From contig JAIXQP010000027.1 of the NCBI GenBank assembly GCA_027485675.1, positions 1 to 64,000 of the forward strand: DNA of 64,000 bases, in the 5' to 3' direction. A program made the translations under genes and the position numbers. The stretch is from Terriglobales bacterium (GTDB lineage: Bacteria > Acidobacteriota > Terriglobia > Bryobacterales > Bryobacteraceae). Below are positions 36,745 through 44,083 of the stretch, in pieces. The notes under the pieces were generated by a model. The model was not told the origin of the DNA. It made no database searches and saw only the letters and a program-made list of their open reading frames with translations. How positions within the stretch are numbered: the stretch's first letter is position 1; every line of letters begins with the position of its first letter.

Positions 36745-37218
36745 ATGGAGGCTCAGCGGTACACGACCCCTATGAGCACGATTCGATTCGGCGCCACTCA
36801 CGAGTACCAGATTCTCCGGCGGGAAGAGATGCGTTCCCGCTGGACTAAAGAGAACGCTCTTCGCTTTCTTGGCCGTTTCAAGAACGATCCGACCGCAATG
36901 GCTGGGTTCCGTAAGATGGTTCCGAAGGCGCGGAACGAGCAGGGCGTGCTGGATGAGATTGCCCGGATGATGGTCTCGGGCCAGTTACTCGTTGTCGAGC
37001 AGCGGGGCTTGGTGGATCATAACCATCTCAGCCTGAAGATCCACCAGGAAGATGCGCCCGCCGCGCCGCCGCAGCGGGTTGCGGAGCCGGAAGCCGAGGA
37101 GGAGGAGGCCACCTTTGCCGCCCAAAGCGATGGCCAGGCACAGGCAGCGACACTGATTGCCGCCGCCCGCTCCGGCGTGCCGTTCTGTGAAGAGTGCGCC
37201 CGGGCGGAAGCGGCTTAG
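36745..37218 (+). CDS. small uncharacterised protein, first gene of DUF4123/pseudokinase operon
   Basis: A 157-residue protein from ATG 36745; ATG 36772 (MSTIRFGATHEYQ) is an alternative start giving 148 residues. The N-terminal part is mixed alpha/beta. A stretch of acidic residues (EPEAEEEEATFAA) precedes a C-terminal tail (AATLIAAARSGVPFCEECARAEAA, seen at its two parts AATLIAAARSG and VPFCEECARAE) with a Cys-x-x-Cys pair. I recall similar Cys-containing tails on proteins near VgrG/DUF4123 genes, so it may be a partner of the next gene product. That is inference; it has no family I can name with confidence. It lies 5 nt before the next gene. Confidence 0.7.
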   Translation: MEAQRYTTPMSTIRFGATHEYQILRREEMRSRWTKENALRFLGRFKNDPTAMAGFRKMVPKARNEQGVLDEIARMMVSGQLLVVEQRGLVDHNHLSLKIHQEDAPAAPPQRVAEPEAEEEEATFAAQSDGQAQAATLIAAARSGVPFCEECARAEAA

Positions 37219-37223
37219 TCCTT

Positions 37224-39338
37224 ATGGCAACCGACCTGCGCAGCGTCCTTTGGCCGAAGGGACCCCGCTCCGATGTGTGGGCCATTCTCGATCCGGCGCG
37301 GGATCCGAACGCGTATTGGACGTTAGTCAACTCCCATCTCAATTACAGCTGCCTGTATGCGGGCCGGTTACCGGATGCCTTAGAACAGGTCGCGCCGCAT
37401 CTGGTGCAACTTGACCCCGAGGATGAGTTCACGGACTTTCTGGCCGCGCAGGTGGGTAACAGTGTAGGCGTGTTTTTTCAGTGCGACGGGGCGATGAAGA
37501 CGGTTCGCCATCATTTGCGTAAGCTTTTGACGGTAAGAGATCCGCGCGGGCGCAAGCTCCTGTTCCGTTACTACGATCCGCGTGTCCTGCGCGTGTTTCT
37601 GCCGACTTGCGACACGGCGGAGTTAGAGCAGATGTACGGACCAATCAAGACCTACTGGGCCGAGTCCCCGGAACCCGGCCAAGTGATTGAGTTCCGGCGT
37701 GGCCGTCTGGGGCTTGAAGTCGCCAACCATAAGATAGTAACTTCGCGGGCCGCCTTCATCTCCGAAGAGGAGGATCTGCCGGCGGCCATCCTGCCGCAGG
37801 CGCCCGTGGTTCTGGTGCAGCGGGGACGTCCGGCTCTGCTGCGGCTCCCGATCGTGCTGCAGTCCGCCGGTTTGGGCGGGCAACTGCTGCGATCGAACGG
37901 ATTGCTGCGGCTCTACCGGACGTCCACCTTGGGCGAGCCGATCGCGTTCTTCGATAACCGGGTGGATCTTCCGGTCGCGAACCTAGATCCGGACCTGACG
38001 GTTTACGCCGAAGGGACCGGGGCCGGCGTTGAGACGTTGACGCTTGAACTGGGCAAGCATGGGGCGGCGAGCGCTGCCTTAACCGTCGTCGCGGTGACGC
38101 TCGAGACCGGCGCCGGAGCGGCGCAGTATAGCGAGGGAATCCAGGTGGGCCTCGCGGGCCGTACCCGCGTGGTGGTGCGACCTGCGACGCCAGAGACCTT
38201 TCGCGGCCAGATGACCTTGCGGTCGGCCGGCGGTCCGAAGCTGCTCTTGTTCCGGGAGGCGGAGGGCGGCGAGGGCGAGTCCTTGCACGAGGGGGTTACG
38301 TTTCCCGCACCGAATGAGCCGCTGTCGTTCTGGCTGCAGGCGGAGTCGGCCAGCGCCAAGGCCGGCGATGCGATGTTGCAGTTGGGGATTGAGGGCGTGG
38401 AAGGCATCGGCGATTGGTGCCTGGTGACGGCGGTGTCGATTGCGGTGCAGGCCCCCGGGGCGGGCGACGGGGCGCTGCTGTGGGGGGCGTCGGCGCCGGT
38501 GGTGGTTACGGCGGAGACGACTCCGGCCGGGGTTCCGGTGCAGTGGTCCTTGGCGCGGGCGGCGGATGACGGGGAGGCCGTCGTGGCGGCGTCGCCGCGG
38601 GCCTTGCCGACGATGGCGGTGGACGGCGCCAGCGTGGCTGTTTCGGCGGATGCTGTGGGCACGTTTGTCGTGTCCGCCAGCGCGGCGGGGTCGGCCGGAT
38701 GGGGCGGTCCGCAGGGCTCCTGCGAGGTGGTGATGGTCCGGGCTGCGCTCGAAAGCAACGAGAGCACCGTCAACGGAAGGTTCGCCCGTTGCGCCGTGGA
38801 TCCGGTGTCGAAGCAGTTCGTCTTGACGAGTGTCCGCGATGCCAGCCAGGAGGCGCCCGTGCAACTGCGGGCGACGATTCGGCTGGTGGGCGGCGGGCCG
38901 TCCGGCGAGCGGGGCGTGGGCGGATTCTTGGCGGGGTGGGCGCACCGGGTGAGTTCGGACAATACGGGCGCGCGGTACAAGGGTGGGGTGACGGTGGGCC
39001 GCAGTGCTCCGGCGGTGGAACCGCTCTCGGCGATGGTGGCCAGTAGCGGGAGCTCATTGCGGGTAGAGACAGGGCTCACGCCGGAGATCTCCTTTCCCGC
39101 CGCGTCCGGCGACAAGCCCATGGAACAGCTTTGGAGTTACCTCGATTGCGAGTCGTCCCTGGTGATCCGTTCGGAGTCCCGTCCGGACGCCTACTTCCAG
39201 GTGATGTCCCTGGCGTGGTCCTTCACGGGCGATTACACGTGCGCCGCCGGGCGGGTGCGGGCGCCGCTGGTGGCCGCGAAGTTGGCGGCCGGGCGGCCGG
39301 TGATTCCCCCCTCCCTCGTGCCATACACCGTAGACTAG
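37224..39338 (+). CDS. DUF4123 domain protein with long beta-rich (Ig-like) C-terminal region
   Basis: A 704-residue protein. Residues about 15-145 are a DUF4123 domain: LDPEDEFTDFLAAQVGNSVG, then HHLRKLLTVRDPRGRKLLFR, then YYDPRVLRVFLPTC. DUF4123 proteins (Tap/TEC) are adaptors that load specific effectors onto the type VI secretion spike VgrG. They are usually about 150-300 residues; here about 550 more residues follow with several Ig/Big-like beta-sandwich segments (for example WGASAPVVVTAETTPAGVPV and GTFVVSASAAGSAGW). No VgrG, Hcp or sheath gene is visible within 64 kb, so this is an orphan adaptor, a fusion of adaptor and cargo, or part of another contractile system (inference). ATG 37224 is chosen just after the preceding stop; the frame opens at 37194. 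Confidence 0.72.
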   Translation: MATDLRSVLWPKGPRSDVWAILDPARDPNAYWTLVNSHLNYSCLYAGRLPDALEQVAPHLVQLDPEDEFTDFLAAQVGNSVGVFFQCDGAMKTVRHHLRKLLTVRDPRGRKLLFRYYDPRVLRVFLPTCDTAELEQMYGPIKTYWAESPEPGQVIEFRRGRLGLEVANHKIVTSRAAFISEEEDLPAAILPQAPVVLVQRGRPALLRLPIVLQSAGLGGQLLRSNGLLRLYRTSTLGEPIAFFDNRVDLPVANLDPDLTVYAEGTGAGVETLTLELGKHGAASAALTVVAVTLETGAGAAQYSEGIQVGLAGRTRVVVRPATPETFRGQMTLRSAGGPKLLLFREAEGGEGESLHEGVTFPAPNEPLSFWLQAESASAKAGDAMLQLGIEGVEGIGDWCLVTAVSIAVQAPGAGDGALLWGASAPVVVTAETTPAGVPVQWSLARAADDGEAVVAASPRALPTMAVDGASVAVSADAVGTFVVSASAAGSAGWGGPQGSCEVVMVRAALESNESTVNGRFARCAVDPVSKQFVLTSVRDASQEAPVQLRATIRLVGGGPSGERGVGGFLAGWAHRVSSDNTGARYKGGVTVGRSAPAVEPLSAMVASSGSSLRVETGLTPEISFPAASGDKPMEQLWSYLDCESSLVIRSESRPDAYFQVMSLAWSFTGDYTCAAGRVRAPLVAAKLAAGRPVIPPSLVPYTVD

Positions 39339-39351
39339 AAGGAACCTTCGT

Positions 39352-41442
39352 ATGATCGGCAAAACGATTGAGCATTACTATGTCCTCGAGCAGATCAGTA
39401 CGTCCGATCTGAGCGTTGTCTACAAGGCGCGCGACCTGAAGCTGGATCGCCTGGTGATGCTGAAGGCGATTGACGTGCCACCCAACGATGCCGATGCGCT
39501 GGCCTCCTTTCAGAAGGAAGCCAAGGCGGGAGTGTCGCTCAACCACCCCAATATCTCGTCGATTTTCGACGTGATTGATCAGAAAGAGGGGCGGTTCCTA
39601 ATCTATGAGTACCTGGCGGGGAGTTCGCTGCGGGAGCGGATCGAACGGGCGACCGAGACCGGGGAGTTGTTGCCGATTGACCGAGTGCTCGACTACATGC
39701 TGGCCGTGGCTCAGGGATTGGCCGAGGCCCATCGCCACGGCATTGTCCATCGGGATGTCTGCGCTGAAAACGTGATCGTTACCCCGACCCACGCCGTGAA
39801 GATCACCAACTTCGGGAAAGCGAAGATGGGCGACGCGCCGACGTTTGCCGCCGGTGGCCGGGCGCTGACGAGTTCGTTTGGCGCTTTCGTGCCCGAACAG
39901 CTGCAGGGCGCCGGGGTGGATCACCGCTGCGACATCTACGGCCTGGCTTCGCTGCTGTTCGAACTGCTGACGGGGGAACCCGCCTTCAAGTCCAGGAACG
40001 CCGCCGCCCGCCTGCACGAGATTCTCTACAACCCCGTGCCCAATATGCAGGATCTGCGGCCGGGGATTTCGAACGGGCTCCAGCGGCTGGTCGAGCGCGG
40101 CATGGCGAAGAAGCCGGAAGACCGCCACCCGACGATGGAGGCGTTCATCGAGGATCTCCGCGCCGAAGCCCGCGAAGGCATGCAGCAGACCGAGCCGTTG
40201 CCGGACGAGCCCGCCGTGGCCGTGCTGCCCTTTGCAACCCTGGCCACCGATCCCGTGTTGAACGAGTTCTGCGACGGGCTGACCGAGGAGCTCTCGTATC
40301 AGCTGCAGCAAGTGGAGGGGCTCCGCGTGGCGGCGTCCACCTCCGCCGCGCGATTCCGCGGCAAGACGGAGGACCTGCGGAAGGTGGGCGCGCATCTGAA
40401 CGTCAATCTGTTGCTCGAAGGCACGGCGCGGGCCGCGGGCTCGAACGTGCGGTTGATCGTGAAACTGACCGATGCGGAGACGGGCTATCAGCTGTGGTCC
40501 GAACGCTATGACCGGGACCTGCGGAAGATGTTGGAGGCGCAGGACGACATTGCCGCTTCCGTCACGCGGATCCTGCGGGCCAAGGTGCTCGGCGAACCGC
40601 TGGTCAGCACGCCCACCCCGCCGCCCACGGGTTTGACGGGCCAGTTTGCCACGGCCTTCGCGGTGCCGGATCTGAATCTGGATGACGTGCTGAGCGCGGC
40701 CAAGGGCCTGCGCAATCCCGAGGAGACGATGCGGGAGGCGCTCAAGGCTGCGCAGCGGGTTCTGGACGTCCGGCCGGATTCGCTCGACGCCTTCGTTTCT
40801 CTGGGCTACGCGCATGCCGTGCTGGGCAATGGGATGGCGGCGGAGCAGGCATTCCTCAAGGCGCTGCAATTGAATCCGGAACGGACGGATGCGCGGGCCG
40901 GTATGGCGCTTTATGTGCTGGCGCCCCGTGGCGAACTTTCGAGCGCCGAGGCGTTGCTTGAGGGCGACCCCAATCCCTCGCTCGAACTCGCCCTGGGCTT
41001 GGGTTGGATCTACTTCTGGCAGGGCCGTTTTGAAGAGACGGTGAACCAATGCCGGCGGGCGTTCAAGATCGACTCGAACTCAGCGGAGATCTACCTGTTG
41101 CTCGGCCGCGCCTACGCCGCTCAGGGTCAGCATCGGGAAGCGCTGATAGCGCTGGGCCGCGGCCAGTTGATGGCGCCGGAGGATGCGCGGCTGCTCGCCG
41201 CGACCAGCTATACCCATGCGCTGTCCGGACAACCCAAGGAAGCCAACCGCCTGGCGGACGACCTGGGGGCCATTGCGCAAAAGCGCTACGTCTCGATGAT
41301 GGAACTGGCGCTGCCTTACGCGGGCCAAGGGCTGGCGGAGTGGGTGGACTGCTGTATTGAAAAGGCGAAGGAGACCCACGCGGCGGCGCTGCTGTGGTGG
41401 AAGCTCGATCCGGCTTGGAAGCCCTTCCAGAAGGCCGCTTAG
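39352..41442 (+). CDS. degenerate protein kinase (pseudokinase) with TPR repeats
   Basis: A 696-residue protein. Residues about 8-270 have the bacterial Ser/Thr kinase fold. The VAIK-type Lys (VMLKAI, Lys38) and the HRD Asp (HRDVCAEN, 133-140) are kept. However, the glycine-rich loop is ISTSDLSVVYKA with no glycine, the catalytic-loop Lys is Cys (HRDVC instead of HRDIK), and DFG is NFG (153-155). Loss of the DFG Asp usually abolishes metal-ATP binding, so it is probably a pseudokinase. A TolB/adenylyl-cyclase-like alpha/beta region (about 285-400, with VLPFATLATDP) and TPR repeats (about 470-660) follow. It begins 13 nt after the DUF4123 gene and is probably cotranscribed. Confidence 0.85.
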   Translation: MIGKTIEHYYVLEQISTSDLSVVYKARDLKLDRLVMLKAIDVPPNDADALASFQKEAKAGVSLNHPNISSIFDVIDQKEGRFLIYEYLAGSSLRERIERATETGELLPIDRVLDYMLAVAQGLAEAHRHGIVHRDVCAENVIVTPTHAVKITNFGKAKMGDAPTFAAGGRALTSSFGAFVPEQLQGAGVDHRCDIYGLASLLFELLTGEPAFKSRNAAARLHEILYNPVPNMQDLRPGISNGLQRLVERGMAKKPEDRHPTMEAFIEDLRAEAREGMQQTEPLPDEPAVAVLPFATLATDPVLNEFCDGLTEELSYQLQQVEGLRVAASTSAARFRGKTEDLRKVGAHLNVNLLLEGTARAAGSNVRLIVKLTDAETGYQLWSERYDRDLRKMLEAQDDIAASVTRILRAKVLGEPLVSTPTPPPTGLTGQFATAFAVPDLNLDDVLSAAKGLRNPEETMREALKAAQRVLDVRPDSLDAFVSLGYAHAVLGNGMAAEQAFLKALQLNPERTDARAGMALYVLAPRGELSSAEALLEGDPNPSLELALGLGWIYFWQGRFEETVNQCRRAFKIDSNSAEIYLLLGRAYAAQGQHREALIALGRGQLMAPEDARLLAATSYTHALSGQPKEANRLADDLGAIAQKRYVSMMELALPYAGQGLAEWVDCCIEKAKETHAAALLWWKLDPAWKPFQKAA

Positions 41443-41605
41443 CGGATCCAGACTGTGACGGGGCTGCGGCTGGCGTGGCTTCCGGCGGTGGGGTTCGCGT
41501 GGTGCCCGGCTGGGTATCCGGATGGGCTGATCCGGCGAAGAGGAGTTCGGCCGGGACGGGAGCAGCGAAAGCGCGTGGGCCGGCCCGACGGGGGCGTTGT
41601 GGAAA
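41434..41605. repeat. 172-bp decayed tandem duplicate of the adjacent gene's 3' end
   Basis: GCCGCTTAGCGGATCCAGAC occurs at 41434 and again at 41606 (offset 172). The region between is a deletion-riddled copy of the 3' end of the minus-strand gene that starts its stop at 41611. Shared blocks are GGGGCTGCGGCTGGCGTGGC, GAAGAGGA(G/C)TTCGGCCGGGA and ACGGGAGCAGCG. In both copies GCTTAG contains the kinase-type TAG and a minus-strand TAA, so two genes with overlapping stops were duplicated together. The 168-bp gap after the kinase stop thus holds a pseudogene fragment and no gene. Confidence 0.8.
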
Positions 41606-41610
41606 GCCGC

Positions 41611-43041
41611 TTAGCGGATCCAGACCGTGACGGGGCTGCGGCTGGCGTGGCTTCCGACGGTCCAGACCACCGGTTCGGCCCGGGGTTCGCGGGGCGTCCG
41701 GCTGGGTAGCCGGACGTTGAGTTGGGTCAGGCCAATGAAGCCCGGCACTTCGCCCGCGAAGAGGACTTCGGCCGGGACGCCGCCGACTTCGACGCGGGAC
41801 GGGAGCAGCGTGACGGCGTGGGCCGGACCAATGGGGGCGCCCGTTTGGCGCGGTGCGGCCACGTCGCCCGCCCCGGCGCCGAACAGGAGCAGCACGCTGC
41901 CGGGCAGGGCCGGAGAGCCGGGGCCGTTGCGGCTGCCATCCTGGTTCACCGCGATGGCGTGCCGCGTGGCGAAGTCCTGAAACAGTTCGGGCGCGGCTTC
42001 GGCGACGGGGACGTTGACGCGGTTCGAAGGCACCGCCGAGCCGAAGACCTGGACCGCAGCCGGCGTGCCCGGACGGAGTTCATAGGGCACCTGGATGTTG
42101 ATCTGATAGGCGTCGGTGTAGAGCAGAGGCACGGGTTCGCCGTTGACGAGCACCCGGGTTCCTTCGAGCTCGCGAGGCAGTTGCCCGCGGGCGTCCAAGC
42201 GGCCGGCGGCGGGCCGCTCCGGTCCCAACTGCTCGACAAACAGCGTCATCAACGCGCCGGGGACGAGGGGCGCGGCGGGGCCGCCGGCGGCATTGGCGAT
42301 GGCGTCCGGGCGTAGGAAACCGAACCCGAAGGGATCGCCGGTGGTCCATTGGAGGACGGTCTGTTTGAGATCGGCGCAGGCGCTTTCGGCGGTGGGCGGC
42401 TCATAGCTGGGCAGGGCGGCGGCGGCCCAGGAGATGCCCTGATTCTCAAACTCGAGGAGGGCGAGAAACGCCGATTCGTCGACGCAGCCCGTGGGAGCAC
42501 CCCAGTCGGCGGCCAGGACGGGGGCGCGGCCGAGGTGGGGACGCAAGGGATCGAGGAGGTTCGGGCCGACGGTGAGCCGGGCGGCGTAGACCACCTGCGG
42601 ATCGTTGACGGCGGGGCCGAGGCGAACCAGCGGATGGCGGGCGCCGGCGCTGCGGACGGCGGCGGCATCGGCGTTGGCGTCGATCTCGAGCAGCACGCGG
42701 GGATTGGCTCCCCATTGTCGCCAGTCGGCCTCGCGGCTGCCGGCGAGGATGACGGCGAGTTGGCTATCGAGGGCGGCTTGTATGGCTGTGACGCCGAGCG
42801 CGGCGGGTAGGCGGACGGCGTTGAGGTTCCAGCGGACGCGCAGGATGCCGAAGGTTTCGCGGGGTTGGCCGAGCCCTTCGGGCGGGACGTTCATGGCACG
42901 CAGCGTGATGGGGGTGCCGCGGTCGAGCAGACGGGTTCCCTGCACCGTGAGGGGGCCAGCGACGGGCGGGAGAACGGGGGCGTGGGCCCAGGCGGATACC
43001 GCTACCCAGCCGAGGGCGAGAGCGAGCTTACTCAAACTCAT
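41611..43041 (-). CDS. secreted protein with cellulase-like (GH5-like) N-domain and TIGR03437 C-domain
   Basis: A 476-residue protein. A signal peptide (MSLSKLALALGWVAVSAWA) is followed by a region of about 250 residues resembling a glycoside hydrolase family 5 barrel (RLLDRGTPITLRAMNVPPEG, NLNAVRLPAALG, LAADWGAPTGCVDESAFLALL), though no pair of catalytic glutamates is evident to me. The C-terminal part is the TIGR03437 domain (VPGALMTLFVEQLGP, NVRLPSRTPREPR). ATG 43041 begins the signal; the open frame extends upstream in the DUF5671 gene, whose stop overlaps it by 14 bp. The 3' end has been tandem-duplicated (see 41434-41605). Confidence 0.75.
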   Translation of the reverse strand: MSLSKLALALGWVAVSAWAHAPVLPPVAGPLTVQGTRLLDRGTPITLRAMNVPPEGLGQPRETFGILRVRWNLNAVRLPAALGVTAIQAALDSQLAVILAGSREADWRQWGANPRVLLEIDANADAAAVRSAGARHPLVRLGPAVNDPQVVYAARLTVGPNLLDPLRPHLGRAPVLAADWGAPTGCVDESAFLALLEFENQGISWAAAALPSYEPPTAESACADLKQTVLQWTTGDPFGFGFLRPDAIANAAGGPAAPLVPGALMTLFVEQLGPERPAAGRLDARGQLPRELEGTRVLVNGEPVPLLYTDAYQINIQVPYELRPGTPAAVQVFGSAVPSNRVNVPVAEAAPELFQDFATRHAIAVNQDGSRNGPGSPALPGSVLLLFGAGAGDVAAPRQTGAPIGPAHAVTLLPSRVEVGGVPAEVLFAGEVPGFIGLTQLNVRLPSRTPREPRAEPVVWTVGSHASRSPVTVWIR

Positions 43042-44083
43042 CGTAGGCGGGCGCCTTGGTCGCATCGAAGGAGAAACAGTGCCGGCCCATGGGGCGCTGG
43101 CCGCTGAGGCTGGGCGCGCCAAAGGTGGCGCAGAGCTTGTACTTGCTGCCGGTGGGCTCGGGTTCGTAGCCGTAGGGTTCGTTCGTAACCGGGTCCGTGG
43201 AGCGCACGATGCGGCCGGCGGAGTTTTCGCGGAGTGCGCTGAGGTCGGCCGGGAGTTTGCGATCGGCGACCAGCGGCCACGCGGTGTAATCCTCATAGAT
43301 GCGGCGGGCCAGGGAGTTGATGTCCTGACTGCGGCGGCGGTCTTCGGCGAGGATGCGTTGGCGGTCGGGCGAGCCGGTGTAGGAGAAGCCGGCGACAAGG
43401 GTAGCTACGATGAGCGTGGCGGCGAGGGCGGCAAAGCGAGTGTGCCAGGTTTTGGCGAGCGCGTTTTCCTTGCCCATACCGCGGGTGTAATAGGCGAACA
43501 CCGCGCCGGCGAGGCCGAGAACTACTAACGATTTGGCCAGGAAGCGGCGGGTGAGTTCGCCTTCGAGAAAGACGGCGAGGACGGCCACCAGGTCGCCGAT
43601 GAAGACCGTCGCCGTGATGAGCAGGGCGATGTTGGTGAGCCAGCGGCGGACGGGAGACGCGGTCTTGTCCGGGTTGGCCGAGAGGTCGCCGAGGATGCTG
43701 CGCGTGGCGACGACGAAGACCGGGAAGGCCACGACGATGGCGGCAATCTGCCAGCTTACCTGGCGGAGCGCCCAGGCTTTGGTGGGGCGGTCGAGCGCAT
43801 CGGGTACCCAGTAGTCGATCATGGTGAACCAGATGGAACCGATAGCGCAGATCCAGCCGCCTAGCGTGCCGAAGGCGAGCAGATGATAGAAGGCCTCCCG
43901 CGCGGCTTCGAGGGTGCTGCGGGGCGTGGGCATGGGGACGCCGGTGGTTTCGGCGTACCACGCCCCGAGCGCCTCATAGACGGTCCGCGCCGGCCAGCCC
44001 TGCTGCTTTAGGAGCTCCACCAGGAACGAGTCCGAGGCCCCCGCCTGCTTGGCCGCGCGCAGAAACCGTGCCAGTTCGTCCAT
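43028..44083 (-). CDS. DUF5671-type integral membrane protein
   Basis: A 351-residue protein. A short N-terminal helical segment (LARFLRAAKQAGASDSFLVELLKQQGW, shown as LARFLRAAKQAG and LVELLKQQGW) precedes about six transmembrane helices (HLLAFGTLGGWICAIGSIWF, WQIAAIVVAFPVFVVA, NIALLITATVFIGDLVAVLA, SLVVLGLAGAVFAYY, FAALAATLIVATLVAGF). It ends with a soluble C-terminal region of about 100 residues. The pattern fits DUF5671. The function is unknown. The start has TATTGT 6 nt upstream with the spacer AGAGGC, which could also act as a weak Shine-Dalgarno. It overlaps the next gene downstream by 14 bp. Confidence 0.75.
   Translation of the reverse strand: MDELARFLRAAKQAGASDSFLVELLKQQGWPARTVYEALGAWYAETTGVPMPTPRSTLEAAREAFYHLLAFGTLGGWICAIGSIWFTMIDYWVPDALDRPTKAWALRQVSWQIAAIVVAFPVFVVATRSILGDLSANPDKTASPVRRWLTNIALLITATVFIGDLVAVLAVFLEGELTRRFLAKSLVVLGLAGAVFAYYTRGMGKENALAKTWHTRFAALAATLIVATLVAGFSYTGSPDRQRILAEDRRRSQDINSLARRIYEDYTAWPLVADRKLPADLSALRENSAGRIVRSTDPVTNEPYGYEPEPTGSKYKLCATFGAPSLSGQRPMGRHCFSFDATKAPAYDEFE

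Follow-up and report, generated by a model that had tools for sequence, protein, structure and literature searches.

Type VI secretion system (T6SS) loci with DUF4123 adaptors (Tap/TEC/Tla1) have the gene order vgrG, DUF4123 gene, effector gene. In the accessible parts of the respective papers, the DUF4123 domain touches the C-terminal extension of VgrG and the adaptor C-terminus touches the effector (PMC13133936), exchange of VgrG C-terminal tails changes which effector is delivered (PMC8668125), and the gene behind DUF4123 is normally a client of the adaptor (PMC11114119). Bacterial pseudokinases are described, in the accessible part of PMC12599244, as mostly unexplored by experiment, with families so far of unknown function. 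Here we analysed a pseudokinase gene in a 64,000-nucleotide stretch of an acidobacterial genome (Terriglobales bacterium, assembly GCA_027485675.1, contig JAIXQP010000027.1, positions 1 to 64,000; the window). It lies on the + strand as the last gene of a unit encoding a small protein, a DUF4123 protein and the pseudokinase (the trio). Since the gene behind DUF4123 normally encodes a client, the pseudokinase was taken as a client or scaffold partner. On balance we favour the reading that an old pseudokinase, kept by selection, would serve as a non-catalytic client or scaffold of the modified DUF4123 adaptor encoded upstream, with the three proteins in one complex. The original prediction for this DNA, which called the gene a probable pseudokinase joined to TPR repeats, did not include the adaptor operon, which is the best clue to the binding partner of the pseudokinase. 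Among the matches listed, no link between a pseudokinase and DUF4123 was found in the open-licence literature.

The gene and the motifs of its kinase domain are located in the window as follows.

39352..41442, + strand: pseudokinase gene, 696 residues; kinase domain (residues ~6-270), TolB_N-like part (residues ~286-412), TPRs (residues ~458-690)
39394..39417, + strand: degenerate glycine loop, residues 15-22; the window reads ISTSDLSVVYKA / ISTSDLS
39463..39465, + strand: beta3 Lys K38 (in MLKAI), kept in 12/12 orthologues
39517..39519, + strand: alphaC Glu E56, kept in 12/12 orthologues
39748..39771, + strand: catalytic loop HRDVCAEN; D135 and N140 kept, C137 replaces Lys
39808..39816, + strand: NFG for DFG (N153), Asn in 12/12 orthologues

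The Hanks-type fold was recognised by PF00069 over residues 13-264 (E 3.5e-32, 112.3 bits against a curated cut-off of 31.7). The open reading frame (ORF), its strand and its ends agreed exactly with those first given, and the HRDVCAEN loop, with Cys for the catalytic Lys, and NFG for DFG were read again in the window. Among the features expected of a competent kinase, the beta3 Lys, the alphaC Glu, the HRD Asp and the loop Asn are present; the HRDxK Lys, the DFG Asp and the glycine-rich loop are absent from the window protein. Its APE motif reads VPE.

Orthologues were searched in 41 genomes (the own genome, 18 of the same genus and 22 more distant ones) and were found in 12: besides the own genome, 11 of the 18 from the genus have one. 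The ORF is whole in ten of them, and the copies in G002 and G010 end at contig ends. In the alignment, K38, E56, D135, N140 and N153 are invariant in all 12 sequences. At position 137, where no sequence has the catalytic-loop Lys, 11 carry Cys and one carries Ser. What had been said of the substituted Lys and DFG, and of the retained beta3 Lys and HRD Asp, holds across the whole group. The missing glycine loop is correct for the window and depends on lineage beyond it: three orthologues (G011, G006 and G012) read IGTAGLG, and the others are degenerate in varied ways. The mean pairwise identity (59 pairs) was 0.74 for the kinase domain versus 0.60 for the TPR part. It was 0.36 for the glycine loop (residues 15-24) versus 0.95 for residues 142-157, which close in NFG and were the best conserved segment measured. 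This result suggested that the ATP-clamping loop drifts and the remainder of the cleft is held.

The ratio of nonsynonymous to synonymous substitution rates (dN/dS) was calculated for 12 chosen pairs out of 55, from 11 of the 12 orthologues. It was 0.018-0.168 for the kinase domain in 11 of the 12 pairs, ratios that are rough in part because several dS values exceed 1; silent sites were saturated in the pair of the own genome and G011. The N153 codon is AAC in some of 11 sequences and AAT in others, so silent changes happened while the Asn stayed. Judged by these data, the pseudokinase is under purifying selection. A quick tree was built from 60 kinase domains, and it joins the 12 orthologues in one clade (Shimodaira-Hasegawa approximate likelihood-ratio test, SH-aLRT, 100), whose stem measures 1.07 changes per column. 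Nearest to this clade are L021 and L022, two proteins of kinase-TolB_N-TPR architecture in which every catalytic residue is present, and the exact sister is less sure because of the long stem. The tree fits a single loss, after which the group diversified under constraint. The own genome yielded 32 kinase domains, and that of the pseudokinase alone is without the DFG Asp (31/31 others have it). The best non-orthologous matches in 17 other genomes (18 loci, of which L037 matched outside the kinase region and L031 reads HGD) have the catalytic residues and the glycine loop all present.

The original prediction had asked for a comparison of these residues across homologues. Our results showed that the substitutions are old, and that homologues with every catalytic residue were seen as paralogues only. 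With fixed substitutions, selection and a single origin, the objection that the changes are recent errors fails. Loss of several motifs would also be expected if the gene were decaying towards a pseudogene or had been misread in sequencing. A recent error or pseudogene was ruled out by the substitutions fixed in 12 orthologues and by the purifying selection; with dN/dS of 0.018-0.168, ORFs that are whole or cut by contig ends only, and the same substitutions throughout, we give decay next to no weight. The diagnosis first made from residue losses is borne out, and the protein is very likely a pseudokinase without normal phosphotransfer, as far as its residues tell. Its role is probably that of a protein-binding fold rather than phosphorylation.

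Two other readings were considered and set aside. Descent from T6SS kinases of the PpkA type was rejected because the quick tree, which holds no PpkA-type members, groups the clade with acidobacterial TolB_N/TPR kinases. The reading as an anti-phage kinase was likewise set aside: 33 PADLOC families match the pseudokinase (best PD-T4-6, E 6e-58), which was taken as general kinase similarity. None of the PADLOC families matches the DUF4123 protein or the small protein.

Behind the kinase domain, residues ~286-412 form a part that we take to be TolB_N-like; no Pfam model matched it in the scan of the pseudokinase. The TPR repeats already predicted were recovered by several Pfam models within residues ~458-617, and those beyond residue ~617 are suggested by the helical part of the AlphaFold model, which was used for this C-terminal part alone. 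The Pfam scan gave no toxin domain. No membrane segment was apparent from hydropathy means, a simpler measure than a dedicated predictor (top 19-residue Kyte-Doolittle mean 1.18 for the window protein, at most 1.71 for the orthologues). The gene end and the sequence beyond it (41434-41486) are repeated about 172 bases on at 41606-41658, at the end of a convergent gene (41611-43398), which by eye is a short local duplication.

The two genes in front of the pseudokinase gene have the following features.

36772..37218, + strand: small protein, 148 residues, ends in a VgrG-like tail
37180..37197, + strand: PFCEEC of the small-protein tail, a motif also at VgrG C-termini
37227..39338, + strand: long DUF4123 protein, 703 residues; proposed start 37227, with the listed ORF beginning at 37194
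37275..37631, + strand: DUF4123 domain within the 703-residue adaptor

The DUF4123 domain was identified by PF13503 (E 5.1e-29, 101.4 bits against a cut-off of 25.8), and the genome search found this DUF4123 gene as the only one of the own genome. As a T6SS adaptor, the product of 37227-39338 has the expected DUF4123 domain, and directly upstream of it stands the small tail-bearing gene in the place of vgrG. In the AlphaFold model of the adaptor, residues 187-703 are nearly all strands, mostly with a predicted local distance difference test score (pLDDT) above 70. Foldseek returned many Ig-like or beta-sandwich chains with low template-modelling scores. The best VIA-align match was the N-terminal part of peptidylarginine deiminase 4 (Z 10.5, root-mean-square deviation 4.3, 186 aligned residues). 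The extension was read as tandem beta-sandwiches, for which no kinship to the structural matches is claimed. The small protein, its N-terminal part included, gave no Pfam or NCBIfam match; FAM24 and zinc-ribbon matches of its relatives were weak and were taken as CxxC noise.

All 12 genomes with the pseudokinase have the trio. Ten have it on a single contig, among them G010, whose small gene is truncated by the contig end; in G005 and G012 it is split over two contigs. The adaptor and kinase genes are separated by 13 nt in the window, and they overlap by 1 nt in G003, by 4 nt in G004, G005 and G010, and by 20 nt in G014 and G002. In G017 and G001, the two closest relatives, the trio has the same other neighbours as in the window. 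The upstream sulfatase gene is near the trio also in G006, and the other neighbours are not beside the trio elsewhere. Among 396 genomes of the phylum, 15 match the DUF4123 protein: the own genome over the full length and the 14 others in the DUF4123 part alone. A scan of a GTDB-based collection with the adaptor extension gave 11 loci in acidobacterial metagenome-assembled genomes; ten of these are genus genomes already counted and so are not independent. A DUF900 alpha/beta hydrolase gene stands upstream of the trio in G003 (L043:6254-7078) and G004 (L044:5982-6791). Other small tail-bearing proteins are encoded before short DUF4123 genes in G005 and G004 (L081, L085/L158) and in G007 and G013 (L073/L156, L075/L155). 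Since other genes stand behind the short DUF4123 genes, the small protein may form with DUF4123 a pair that can be used repeatedly.

The small protein has ...QAATLIAAARSGVPFCEECARAEAA at its C-terminus, and in its relatives this tail piece occurs once to three times. The pattern is ..AA..G.PFCxxC, in which the second Cys is not always there. In both acidobacteria and proteobacteria it closes the products of genes that stand upstream of DUF4123 genes, namely VgrGs, one PAAR protein and stand-alone small proteins, at the following loci.

36772-37218; L067, L093-L097, L099, L101-L104, L106, L151-L154, L157, L176, L201, L202, L204, L206: tail / DUF4123 loci

The search of the genus gave 32 VgrG genes (33 rows, two being pieces of one gene), of which 30 were read (G005:C233 and C166 left aside). 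L160 (open at the contig end), L175 (early stop) and L178 (fragment) were excluded, and 27 were kept; these are related genes and not independent draws. All six VgrGs with DUF4123 next to them end in ..A(A/S)..G..FC, where the DUF4123 gene of five was seen directly and that of the sixth (L176) was recognised from a piece at the contig end. None of the 21 other VgrGs has the tail; for these, residue motifs of DUF4123 were sought on the same strand over as much as 3 kb of downstream sequence (less than 2.4 kb for L162 and one L151 VgrG) and were not found. In the rest of the phylum, the gene upstream of DUF4123 has the tail in 11/14 loci, with L101 (PFVEM) counted and L106 being the PAAR protein; in L098, L100 and L105 it does not. 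In plasmid regions of environmental bacteria, vgrG lies upstream of DUF4123 in 5/7, and four of these five VgrGs end in [PA].C..C (Azospirillum twice, Sagittula, and Thalassospira with a PAAR gene between), the Eleftheria protein being without it. By analogy with the known VgrG contacts, the PFCxxC tail is probably a docking tag for DUF4123 adaptors. No description of the tail was found in the open-licence literature among the matches listed, and the adaptor paper of Colautti 2024 may describe it.

In the arrangement that we propose, the DUF4123 domain would dock on the PFCxxC tail of the small protein, not on that of VgrG. The beta extension of the adaptor would bind the pseudokinase, and both would make up the client side of the complex, where the kinase fold and the TPRs of the pseudokinase could hold other proteins.

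A T6SS operon of the own genome (TssB, Hcp, ImpE, TssA, gp25-like, TssF, Clp-type ATPase, PAAR) lies on a different contig from the trio, and the genome also has TssC and VgrG. TssC and VgrG were both found in 10/12 genomes with the trio, the exceptions being G003 and G012. G007, G009, G013, G015, G016 and G018 have TssC and VgrG and no trio, and in G008 (62% complete), likewise without the trio, neither was found. The T6SS and the trio are thus not strictly together, which counts against a plain injected effector. A TssC-like protein of the own genome (L179:9883-11466, contig 54) lies apart from the T6SS operon and has a relative in G003 (L180:9462-10958).

Several observations weigh against the favoured account. 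The own VgrG has no tail, and every VgrG match in the ten genomes lies on another contig than the trio. G003 (93% complete) has the trio, and neither VgrG nor TssF was found there; the same two were not found in G012 (58% complete), and TssC of both genomes is represented by pieces or a weak TssC-like paralogue only. The downstream neighbour recurs behind the pseudokinase in G017 and G001 only, which gives no hint of an immunity gene linked to it. The AlphaFold models are poor where they would matter, with a mean pLDDT of 56 for the pseudokinase (below 50 in the N-lobe and active site) and a poorly modelled DUF4123 domain in the adaptor. The catalytic-loop Lys is present in 29/31 other kinase domains of the own genome, and the remaining two, L147 (HRDVAPDN) and L148 (HRDLSFGN), keep DFG. 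The Lys change alone therefore does not prove inactivity, and the argument rests on the Asp change. Loss of this Lys alone is found in other bacterial kinases too, as in L147 and in an Azospirillum kinase beside T6SS genes (L201, HRDMSTDN with DFG).

Two variants of the client or scaffold reading differ in where the complex would act. In one, the pseudokinase is T6SS cargo that the adaptor loads on the spike, to be injected into other cells and bind a target there. The effector slot behind the DUF4123 gene and the T6SS operon, TssC and VgrG of the own genome speak for it, but the pseudokinase shows no toxin domain and no sign of an immunity gene, the own VgrG is tailless, and G003 keeps the trio with no VgrG or TssF found. 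We regard this variant as rather unlikely. In the other, parts of a T6SS adaptor system gave rise to the trio, which has since become a scaffold or regulator inside the cell and acts independently of the T6SS. This is consistent with a tail on a stand-alone small protein, in one to three copies, with the separate contigs of VgrG and trio, and with the state of G003. However, G003 is 93% complete, so the locus may be missing from its assembly, and TssC and VgrG accompany the trio in ten of 12 genomes. We hold this second variant, too, to be possible and not probable.

The retained K38, E56, D135 and N140 leave room for another chemistry, in which nucleotide binding or an unusual reaction persists and the conserved Asn and Cys belong to a new active site. 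The segment up to NFG is the best conserved one measured (residues 142-157, 0.95), and SelO and SidJ, kinase folds with other activities according to the accessible part of PMC12599244, are precedents. But the glycine loop is unconserved (0.36), the DFG Asp is gone in 12/12 orthologues, and one orthologue has Ser for the Cys. A new active site is thus improbable in our judgement, and the non-catalytic client or scaffold remains our preferred reading.

On the most far-reaching reading, a T6SS adaptor system would have been taken apart and rebuilt, with the tail moved to a small protein, a large beta-sandwich arm gained and a dead kinase as client, into a signalling or assembly complex free of the secretion machine. 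The pseudokinase would then be the first to work under a DUF4123 adaptor, a speculation to which we give a low probability. Because a probable partner and a probable docking tag are at hand, as are sister kinases with every catalytic residue, the question of what the pseudokinase binds comes down to a single co-purification. Should the PFCxxC tail rule be right, sequence would also allow one to predict which spike proteins use DUF4123 adaptors.

Compared with the DUF4123 T6SS loci, the trio has the same DUF4123 domain, a client gene directly downstream, and the same AA..G.PFCxxC C-terminal tail on the protein encoded upstream. In those loci the tail is carried by VgrG, whereas here it is on a small stand-alone protein; the adaptor here has a mostly beta extension of ~515 residues, the client slot holds a pseudokinase, and the unit is away from the T6SS operon. 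Among pseudokinases, EssB/YukC of the type VIIb secretion system, as presented in the accessible part of PMC12599244, also has a degraded kinase domain, which serves a secretion system as a scaffold. However, it is a membrane protein with all three motifs degraded, whereas here Lys38 and HRD are kept, no membrane segment is apparent, and the partner is of the T6SS type. ActPs1-3, GLW, CP1, DYD and DLHK of the same source are likewise bacterial kinase folds with motif losses under constraint, against which our protein is marked by the kept beta3 Lys and HRD, the changes of DFG to NFG and Lys to Cys, and the kinase-TolB_N-TPR architecture. That source gives the beta3 Lys as Arg in ActPs2 and DYD and as Leu/Trp in GLW, and all motifs as degraded in ActPs3; K38 and HRD are kept in 12/12 of our orthologues. 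CP1 varies in its motifs and is marked there by a linked COG3899 domain, a predicted ATPase; no ATPase family appeared in the Pfam scan of the pseudokinase, for which the COG3899 model itself was not run. These descriptions set our protein apart from ActPs2, ActPs3, GLW and DYD by motif and may set it apart from CP1 by domain, and ActPs1 and DLHK stand outside the comparison. The text of PMC12599244 nowhere uses the term acidobacteria. The nearest proteins in architecture are the acidobacterial kinase-TolB_N-TPR proteins L021 and L022, the sister of the pseudokinase clade in the quick tree, which align over residues 1-694 and 2-693 with 30-31% identity and, unlike the pseudokinase, have every catalytic residue and the glycine loop.
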